Under the pieces are notes generated by a model. That model searched no databases. It had not been told where the DNA came from and saw nothing but the letters and a program-made list of their open reading frames with translations. Positions 6,435 to 12,434 of a stretch of 35,539 nucleotides of DNA are shown in pieces; positions within the stretch are counted from its first letter, which is position 1; every line of letters starts with the position of its first letter. A program made the translations under genes and the position numbers. This DNA is from Candidatus Rokubacteria bacterium GWC2_70_16 (lineage in GTDB: Bacteria; Methylomirabilota; Methylomirabilia; Rokubacteriales; CSP1-6), in assembly GCA_001788415.1 (NCBI GenBank), contig MGBV01000029.1:1-35539 (forward strand), given 5' to 3'.

Positions 6435-6575
6435 GGGGTCAGGTCTTGCAATCCAACACGTAGCCCCGTCCCCGCCGCTGCTGTGCCAGCGGCGGTACAC
6501 GATGAACAGTGCGCTGACCCCTCTCACAATGCAAGCCCACACCCCTGCCGATGTTGGATTGCAAGACCTGACCCC
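6435..6575. repeat. REPIN-like inverted-repeat element, copy 1
   Basis: A 141-bp element bounded by perfectly inverted 24-bp arms, 6435-6458 (GGGGTCAGGTCTTGCAATCC...) and 6552-6575. The 93-bp core holds a 9-bp hairpin (CCGCCGCTG at 6472-6480 with CAGCGGCGG at 6487-6495). The same arms occur at 12264-12434, and the reverse complement of this core aligns with the core there (for example a shared GTACCG and GGGTCAG spacing), so it is one family inserted in opposite orientations. No transposase is encoded. It occupies the divergent promoter region between 6420 and 6632, so it may influence either gene. It resembles non-autonomous elements moved by REP-associated Y1 transposases; that link is inference. 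Confidence 0.85.
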
Positions 6576-10420: not shown

Positions 10421-11716
10421 ATGCGCGTGCCCTTCTTCTACGGCTGGGTGGTGGTGGCCGTGGCCTTCGTCACCATGGCCATCGGCGTCAACTCGCGCAC
10501 GGCCTTCTCCCTGCTCTTCCCGCCCATCCTGGACGAGTTCGGCTGGGAGCGCGGCGTCACCGCGGCGACCTTCTCCGTGGGCTTCATGCTCTCCATGCTC
10601 TTCACGCCGTTCCTCGGCCGGCTCATGGACCGGTGGGGCCCGCGCCGCGTGATCCCCCTGGGTGTGGGGCTCATCTGCGCCGGTCTCGTCCTGGGCACGC
10701 TGGCCCGGGAGCCCTGGCACCTGTACCTCACGCTCGGCGTGCTGGTGGTGGGCGGCAGCGTCTGCGTGGGCTACACGGGGCATGCCCTCTTCCTGCCCCA
10801 CTGGTTCATCCGGCGGCGCGGGGTGGCCATGGGGCTGGCCTTCGCGGGGGTGGGGATCGGCTCCATCATCCTCTTCCCGTGGCTGCAGGCGCTCATTCTC
10901 CGCTCCGGCTGGCGCCAGGCGTGCTGGGCGATGGCCGCACTCCTCGCCGTGACGCTCGTGCCGCTCAACGCCATCTTCCAGCGGCGCCACCCGGAGGACC
11001 TGCATCTCGTCGCCGACGGCGATCCGGCTCCCACCTCCATCGCCGCCGGCCGCTCGCATCCGGACAACGTCGTGGATCAGGCCTGGGCCTCGGTGGATTG
11101 GACGCTCGGCCGCGCCCTGGGGACGGCGAGGTTCTGGTGGGTCTTCCTCGGCTTCTTCTCCGGGCTCTTCGCCTGGTATGCCGTCCAGGTGCATCAGACG
11201 AAGTACCTGATCGAGATCGGCTTCACGCCCGCGGTGGCGGCCTACGCTCTCGGCTTCGTGGGGCTGGGCGGCGTCGTGGGCCAGATCGGCCTCGGCCATC
11301 TCTCGGATCGCGTGGGGCGGGAATGGGTCTGGACGCTCGCCAGCGCGGGCTTCATCCTCTGCTACGTCCTGCTGCTCCTGATGCGGCAGCATCCCACGCC
11401 GGCCCTGCTCTACCTCATGGTGGCCTCCCAGGGCATGCTCGGCTATGGCCTGGCCTCGGTCTTCGGCGCCATCCCGGCCGAGCTGTTCCAGGGCAAGCAC
11501 TATGGCACGGTGTTCGGCACTCTCGGCCTCGGCGCGGGGGCGGGCTCCGGGACAGGCCCCTGGGTGGCGGGCTTCATCTACGACCGCACCGGTTCCTACG
11601 CGCCCGCGTTCTGGCTGGCCATGGGCGCCAGCCTCGTCTCCATCGTCGCGATCTGGCTGGCGGCGCCTCGCAAGGTGCGCGCCGTCGCGGGCCGCATCCC
11701 GCACACCCCCCGTTAG
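10421..11716 (+). CDS. Major facilitator superfamily transporter
   Basis: A 431-residue integral membrane protein with about 12 hydrophobic segments in two halves. The A-motif-like loop between TM2 and TM3 is G-R-L-M-D-R-W-G-P-R-R and its second-half counterpart is G-H-L-S-D-R-V-G-R-E-W. The profile is like the oxalate/formate antiporter and monocarboxylate group, suggesting a small organic acid substrate, but this is inference. The gene ends 17 bp before the AhpD/CMD gene, so the two are probably one transcription unit. Confidence 0.9.
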   Translation: MRVPFFYGWVVVAVAFVTMAIGVNSRTAFSLLFPPILDEFGWERGVTAATFSVGFMLSMLFTPFLGRLMDRWGPRRVIPLGVGLICAGLVLGTLAREPWHLYLTLGVLVVGGSVCVGYTGHALFLPHWFIRRRGVAMGLAFAGVGIGSIILFPWLQALILRSGWRQACWAMAALLAVTLVPLNAIFQRRHPEDLHLVADGDPAPTSIAAGRSHPDNVVDQAWASVDWTLGRALGTARFWWVFLGFFSGLFAWYAVQVHQTKYLIEIGFTPAVAAYALGFVGLGGVVGQIGLGHLSDRVGREWVWTLASAGFILCYVLLLLMRQHPTPALLYLMVASQGMLGYGLASVFGAIPAELFQGKHYGTVFGTLGLGAGAGSGTGPWVAGFIYDRTGSYAPAFWLAMGASLVSIVAIWLAAPRKVRAVAGRIPHTPR

Positions 11717-11733
11717 TGGGAAGGAGGTTTTCC

Positions 11734-12261
11734 ATGGCGACCGTGAACCCGCTTCCCAGGGAGCAGGCGGCGGAGGACGTGAAGTCGGTCTACGACGGTC
11801 TCACGAAGGCCTACGGCAAGATCCCGAACATGTTCGCCGTGATGGCCCATCGGCCCTCCGTGCTCAGGCACTTCATGCCCTTCTATGCCGCCGTCATGCG
11901 CGAGGGGACGGTGGAGCCTCGCTACAAGGAGCTGGCCTACCTCAAGGCCTCGACGCTCAACGGGTGCGAGTACTGAACCCGCGCCCACACCGCTTCGTCG
12001 AAGCGGGTCGGGATCACCGACGAGCACATCCGGGCGCTCGGGTTCTTCCAGCGCAGTCCGCTCTTCGACGCGAAGGACAAGGCGACGCTGCTCTACGCCG
12101 AGCGCGTGACGCGCGGCGCGGCGGCCCTCCGCGAGGGCGCCCTCCAGGCGCTGCGGGAGCACTTCAGCGAGGACCAGATCGTCGAGCTCACGCTCGTGAT
12201 CTGCGCGGCCAACTTCACCAACCGGTTCAACGACGCCCTCCAGATCCCCCCCGACCTCTAG
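11734..12261 (+). CDS. AhpD/carboxymuconolactone decarboxylase-family protein with in-frame TGA; candidate selenoprotein
   Basis: Read through the TGA at 11974-11976, this is a 175-residue protein with a strong AAGGAGG site 6 bp before ATG 11734 and a TAG stop at 12259-12261. The centre reads N-G-C78-E-Y-(TGA81)-T-R-A-H85. AhpD-type CMD proteins have C-x-x-C-x-x-x-H there, the redox centre that reduces peroxides or disulfides, so TGA replaces exactly the second catalytic Cys. The 94 downstream codons stay open in the same frame and read as normal family sequence (KRVGITDEHIRALGFF, DKATLLYAERVTRG, IVELTLVICAANFTNRFND). A hairpin fitting bacterial SECIS rules follows. Family knowledge: Sec-containing AhpD-like and CMD-domain proteins with CxxU are known. 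Alternatives are a Cys-to-stop mutation or a sequence error, leaving an 80-residue product ending before the motif is complete. Confidence 0.72.
11990..12006 (+). promoter_or_regulatory. Candidate bacterial SECIS hairpin downstream of the in-frame TGA
   Basis: CCGCTT at 11990-11995 pairs with AAGCGG at 12001-12006 around CGTCG; closing C-G extends the stem to 7 bp and leaves a G-U-C loop. The loop begins 19 nt after the TGA, inside the 16-37 nt window used for bacterial SECIS elements, with G in the first two loop positions. In E. coli fdhF the SelB-binding loop G-G-U-C lies at nearly the same distance. A competing pairing, ACCCGC (11977-11982) with GCGGGT (12003-12008), is also possible. Hairpins are common in GC-rich DNA, so this supports but does not prove Sec insertion. 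Confidence 0.55.
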
Positions 12262-12263
12262 CC

Positions 12264-12434
12264 GGGGTCAGGTCTTGCATTCCAACATCAGCCGGGTGCG
12301 GTGCCGGGTCGGGATGCGGGTCAGGGCACCTGTCGTCGAGTACCGTTCCGAGCGCGACAGCCGTGACGCCGGGACCACATGTTGGATTGCAAGACCTGAC
12401 CCCCCTCACGTGTTGGATTGCAAGACCTGACCCC
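12264..12434. repeat. REPIN-like inverted-repeat element, copy 2, plus an extra half arm
   Basis: Arms at 12264-12287 (one mismatch to copy 1: CATTCC for CAATCC) and 12380-12403 face each other around a 92-bp core; a third arm, identical to the second, follows at 12411-12434 after 7 bp. The first two arms make a 140-bp element matching the 141-bp copy at 6435-6575, with the core in reverse orientation. A CTGTCG/CGACAG stem in the core corresponds in position to a CTGT/ACAG stem of copy 1. The element starts 2 bp after the stop of the CMD gene, and its last arm forms the 3' end of the LLM gene on the other strand. Confidence 0.85.

Follow-up and report, generated by a model that had tools for sequence, protein, structure and literature searches.

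The forward strand of a Rokubacteria contig holds a reading frame that is interrupted once by a TGA codon and then continues as recognizable family sequence, and the question at this locus is whether that codon ends translation or is read as selenocysteine. The window, by which we mean the whole stretch of DNA that was analysed, comprises 35,539 nucleotides of contig MGBV01000029.1 of Candidatus Rokubacteria bacterium GWC2_70_16. An earlier note, made from the letters alone, had described one in-frame TGA inside a 175-codon frame and had proposed a selenoprotein; the frame was confirmed on the sequence, with its start ATG at 11734, its stop TAG at 12259-12261 and a read-through product of 175 amino acids (Table 1). 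The proposal itself is supported by the presence of selA, selB, selC and selD in the genome, the restriction of codon 81 to TGA or Cys codons, the selection acting downstream of the TGA and a SECIS-like hairpin that is absent from the Cys homologues. We hold with high confidence that this is an AhpD-like selenoprotein gene in which UGA 81 is read as selenocysteine.

Table 1. Positions of the gene, its signals and its neighbour in the window, together with related TGA-containing genes in the same genome and copies of a short repeat.
Feature	Position	Strand	Details
AhpD-like (CMD, YciW/TIGR01926-like) gene, with high confidence a selenoprotein gene	11734..12261	+	175 codons, Sec codon 81, stop TAG
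UGA, with high confidence read as selenocysteine (U81), second residue of CxxU redox motif	11974..11976	+	TGA/Cys codons across subfamily
Bacterial SECIS-like hairpin, 7 bp, loop GUC (11997-11999)	11990..12006	+	24/24 Sec genes, 0/11 Cys genes
Shine-Dalgarno-like GGAAGGAGG, strong, 6 nt 5' of ATG	11719..11727	+	sequence
MFS transporter gene (PF07690)	10421..11716	+	17 nt 5' of selenoprotein gene
AhpD-like paralogue L091	G000:C171:13266-13775		CPFU
AhpD-like paralogue L092	G000:C280:21183-21524		CETU; 7-bp hairpin CCGCCTC-GGC-GAGGCGG, same offset as window gene
AhpD-like paralogue L093	G000:C153:9936-10433		CVHU
24-bp repeat GGGGTCAGGTCTTGCAWTCCAACA	window 6435-6458, 6552-6575, 12264-12287, 12380-12403, 12411-12434

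Family membership and related selenoproteins

The motif around the recoded codon reads C78-E-Y-[TGA81]-T-R-A-H85, and relatives carry TGC or TGT at the same place, confirming that the TGA occupies the second Cys of a CxxC motif. The Pfam CMD domain (PF02627) matches residues 41-123 (E=1.7e-19, 70 bits against a gathering cut-off of 23), so the domain spans the TGA. The TIGR00778 AhpD core domain scored 32.9 bits, above its curated cut-off of 27.8, and the TIGR01926 peroxidase-related enzyme model (COG2128/YciW-like) scored 74.1 bits, below its curated cut-off of 81.8; ten other proteins, Cys forms included, scored 50.0-79.5 bits with the latter model. Among the NCBIfam models, NF053654 (GroundWater_YciW) matched best, ahead of TIGR01926, covering residues 1-173 with E=4.9e-29; its score was 101 bits, under the equivalog cut-off of 310. 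As the scores fall under the cut-offs of both TIGR01926 and NF053654, the exact subfamily lies outside the curated models, and the window gene is related to the "YciW-related (seleno)protein" of NF053654 but is not a member of that equivalog.

Selenocysteine-containing AhpD-like and CMD-domain proteins had already been reported, as the earlier note stated. The Sargasso Sea data contained 27 AhpD-like CxxU selenoprotein sequences of COG2128 (PMC1088965), the Global Ocean Sampling data contained 299 sequences designated AhpD-like 1 (PMC2398784), and a 2026 review lists AhpD-like selenoproteins and a CMD-like family and mentions a genome of Methylomirabilota in which 63 selenoprotein genes are predicted (PMC13188914). 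The window gene has in common with the AhpD-like selenoprotein family (COG2128 YciW/TIGR01926) the CMD/AhpD fold, a CxxU motif with selenocysteine second and a bacterial SECIS downstream. It is likened to the marine AhpD-like 1 group by published descriptions, whereas its own branch comprises Rokubacteria and Acidobacteria. Because AhpD-like CxxU selenoproteins have been reported since 2005, the window gene is not the first of its type, and its description as a known type in a different lineage is well supported. No paper on the window gene turned up in a literature search on rokubacterial or acidobacterial selenoproteins.

Conservation at and beyond codon 81

Scanning 84,980 species genomes yielded 40 related loci, mainly from Rokubacteria and Acidobacteria, and further loci were obtained from 60 relatives. 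After removal of duplicates, codon 81 was TGA in 24 subfamily genes (the window gene included) and TGC or TGT in 11, with no other codon at this position; the comparison of this column across independent genomes, which the earlier note had recommended, thus returned TGA or Cys and nothing else. TGA-bearing subfamily genes occur in two phyla, Rokubacteria and Acidobacteria. The 94 codons after the TGA, previously described as intact, are fully conserved across the subfamily, with invariant N160, N163 and R164. Across seven comparisons free of gaps, among which two pairs are of identical sequence, dN/dS was 0.17-0.36 after the TGA versus 0.13-0.45 before it. Purifying selection thus acts on the downstream region much as on the upstream one, and the relaxed selection that would have spoken against a selenoprotein was not seen. 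A downstream dN/dS of 1.5 for L049 was discarded because it arose artificially from a one-residue insertion that the ungapped comparison did not accommodate.

These observations decide whether the TGA could instead be a real stop, arising from a nonsense mutation or a sequencing error and leaving a pseudogene or an 80-residue truncation. Although TGA ordinarily serves as a stop codon in this genome, its occurrence at the same codon in so many distinct genes of two phyla, followed by conserved codons with low dN/dS, refutes that reading, to which we assign a negligible probability. Genome-wide reassignment of UGA, for example to Trp, is even less credible and was rejected, as the earlier note had anticipated: the frame would stay open under such a code and nothing else favours it, whereas TGA terminates 5 of the 7 Pfam-supported genes in the same part of the window, relatives have Cys and never Trp at column 81, and the genome carries a full selABCD set with a tRNA-Sec.

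The tree of the proteins shows at least seven changes of label between Sec and Cys, with the distant Cys rows L033 and L035 included in the count, and on it a Cys form (L009) and a Sec form (L017) are sister rows. A second related AhpD-like group from Rokubacteria/NC10 (Methylomirabilota), L028-L032, shares the TGA at the corresponding column (C-x-Y-U-A-T-H-N), followed by a different hairpin (GGCCCTC-GGTCA-GAGGGTC).

A hairpin that accompanies the TGA codon

Directly downstream of the TGA lies the hairpin CCGCTTC-GTC-GAAGCGG, the first base of which is the 14th nucleotide after the TGA, with the loop following after 20 nt. A hairpin of 6-7 bp with loop C-GUC-G had been noted at this distance; the stem was found to have 7 bp and to be kept only in TGA genes. 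All 24 TGA genes contain a 7-bp stem with a GUC or GGC loop at an offset of 16-32 from the first base of the UGA, as opposed to 0 of 11 Cys genes, which form 2-6 of the 7 pairs at the site (Fisher p=2e-9, relatedness ignored). The published bacterial SECIS model has a loop of 3-9 nt, a stem of 4-16 bp, a distance of 16-37 nt from the UGA, and a G at loop position 1 or 2 with G or U after it (PMC13188914). The window hairpin fits this model, with its 3-nt loop, G then U/G, and 20 nt from UGA to loop. Rfam SECIS_1 (RF00031) gave no match in the window's own genome, and likewise none in 14 control genomes, so that this negative result is uninformative.

Of the synonymous re-codings of the sequence, about 0.1% had a 7-bp stem at the exact site, and 0.7% had any stem of 7 bp or more that conforms to the model. 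The rarity of seven pairs at the site among these re-codings indicates that the amino-acid sequence alone does not account for the stem. Among 19 distinct TGA sequences, every pair is formed in every sequence, both sides vary in three of the seven pairs (compensatory changes), and the covariation score is higher than in any of 500 shuffles or any slid version; relatedness inflates these figures. In addition, the substitutions K90R (L024) and R91Q (L002, L006 and L025) are each accompanied by a matching change of the opposite base, so the pairing has been kept through amino-acid changes.

Selenocysteine machinery and other TGA genes in the genome

The window's genome is a 4.70-Mb draft that is 87% complete. 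All four genes for which the earlier note had suggested a search were found in it: contig C150 carries selA (573 bits) adjoining selB (372 bits), plus selC, a tRNA-Sec with anticodon UCA, and selD (350 bits) is located on contig C95. The gene for SelD (L090:5952-6929, G000:C95) has an in-frame TGA of its own, in C-A-G-U-A-S-K, followed by a strong hairpin, and this SelD is likely to be a selenoprotein itself. With these components, UGA 81 would be decoded by the tRNA-Sec (UCA), which SelB would bring upon recognition of the hairpin directly 3' of the UGA, and the selenocysteine would be made by SelD and SelA.

Among the genomes of loci from the species-genome scan, selA was present in 23 of 23 with a TGA locus versus 6 of 11 with a Cys locus (Fisher p=0.0017, relatedness ignored), and within the main subfamily only, in 18 of 18 versus 6 of 9 (p=0.03, relatedness again ignored). 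Two TGA-bearing draft MAGs from another genome set gave incomplete results: neither selA nor tRNA-Sec was found in G032, which is listed as 100% complete, and in G001 selA was found and tRNA-Sec was not. In the window's own genome selA, selB and selC are clustered, an arrangement in which one assembly gap could remove all three.

Three more AhpD-like paralogues in the same genome (L091, L092 and L093) each have one in-frame TGA at a CxxU motif (Table 1); L091 is nearer to NF053654, with 145 bits compared to 101 for the window gene. As a separate feature, the 24-bp GGGGTCAGGTCTTGCAWTCCAACA occurs in 29 exact copies in the genome, five of them in the window. There the copies face each other in pairs that span about 120-140 bp, and one of these pairs directly follows the selenoprotein gene on its 3' side. 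The sequence resembles a REP-type element or a small mobile repeat.

Fold, active site and gene neighbourhood

The AlphaFold2 model of the protein is confident and all-helical (pLDDT 93.4, pTM 0.89), and its Foldseek matches are AhpD-like proteins, including 6k40 of D. radiodurans (TMq 0.89), 2oyo (0.88), PA0269 (2ijc) and the debrominase Bmp8. E66, C78, Y80, U/C81 and H85 are invariant in 27 aligned subfamily members. The proton relays described for PA0269 (Glu36, Cys48, Tyr50, Cys51, His55) and for M. tuberculosis AhpD (Glu118, Cys130, His132, Cys133, His137) (PMC3141380) provide the template for these residues, as the five-residue series Glu-Cys-Tyr/His-Cys-His recurs in the window protein with the correct spacing and with Sec for the second Cys. 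Since this spacing gives Glu66, Cys78, Tyr80, Sec81 and His85, selenocysteine replaces the second active-site Cys. The helical hairpin is common to PA0269, M. tuberculosis AhpD and the window protein, as is the distance of 12 residues between Glu and the first Cys; at the second position, PA0269 and M. tuberculosis AhpD have Cys where the window protein has Sec.

From the fold and the active-site residues, the natural inference is that the gene product would be a faster thiol-dependent peroxidase or disulfide-exchange enzyme; the peroxidase activity of the AhpD-like PA0269 is weak (PMC3141380). In such a cycle, Sec81, located where the active-site helix begins, would presumably attack a hydroperoxide or related electrophile with the assistance of a proton relay of Glu66, Tyr80 and His85, Cys78 would resolve the selenenic acid to give a Cys78-Sec81 bond, and a thiol partner might then reduce that bond. 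Judging from fold and active-site residues only, we lean towards peroxide or disulfide reduction as the main reaction. The earlier description of a Sec-dependent peroxide or thiol redox enzyme accordingly stands as to selenocysteine and is less firm as to the redox activity.

The gene neighbourhood bears on the same question. Co-transcription with the MFS carrier gene, as the earlier note had proposed, is plausible given the 17-nt gap and the strong Shine-Dalgarno-like sequence, but the pairing is seen in only three genomes, all of the same genus, and thus gives no evidence for a functional link. Elsewhere, the upstream neighbours are a CoA-transferase (L005 and L011), a TPP enzyme (L017), a UGSC-family gene (L007) and other genes, and the neighbourhood comparison found no partner gene conserved beyond the genus. 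The UGSC-family gene (L007:1306-2985) has an in-frame TGA (U-G-S-C, position 1606) and lies directly upstream of a Sec AhpD-like gene, a putative case of two adjacent selenoprotein genes.

A selenoprotein with another main reaction, either reductive dehalogenation of the Bmp8 type or service as a dithiol adaptor of a peroxiredoxin, as AhpD serves AhpC, is the alternative that survives best, and we consider it the less probable option but a serious one. Bmp8, which belongs to the CMD family like the window protein, provides the top Foldseek matches by E-value (6ohj and 6ohi, TMq 0.82-0.83) and also matches by sequence (6ohi, E=4e-11), and the CoA-transferase neighbours would be in keeping with a different role. 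However, identity to Bmp8 over the aligned fold is just 22-23%, the AhpD-type match 6k40 has the higher TM-score, and the lack of a partner gene shared beyond the genus does not favour a dedicated adaptor or dehalogenation function. Peroxide or disulfide reduction by the selenoprotein is the reading we consider somewhat more probable.

Implications

A broader picture is offered tentatively, as one that we think rather unlikely to hold in full. The window gene would represent a YciW/AhpD-like subfamily of Rokubacteria and Acidobacteria, outside the NCBIfam models, that has repeatedly exchanged with Cys forms and of which one genome carries at least four TGA-containing AhpD-like genes; the hairpin would constrain the protein at residues 90 and 91 and be lost in Cys forms, and the enzymes may act on non-peroxide substrates such as halogenated aromatics.

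For the annotation of such genomes, a standard gene caller that treats TGA as a stop would fragment the gene, and a redox enzyme of uncultured bacteria from soil and groundwater would go unnoticed. Closely matched Sec and Cys versions, such as L017 (Sec) and L009 (Cys), constitute a natural experiment on the gain or loss of selenocysteine together with its RNA signal. The results also add evidence for the use of selenocysteine by Rokubacteria in several paralogues of the AhpD-like type.
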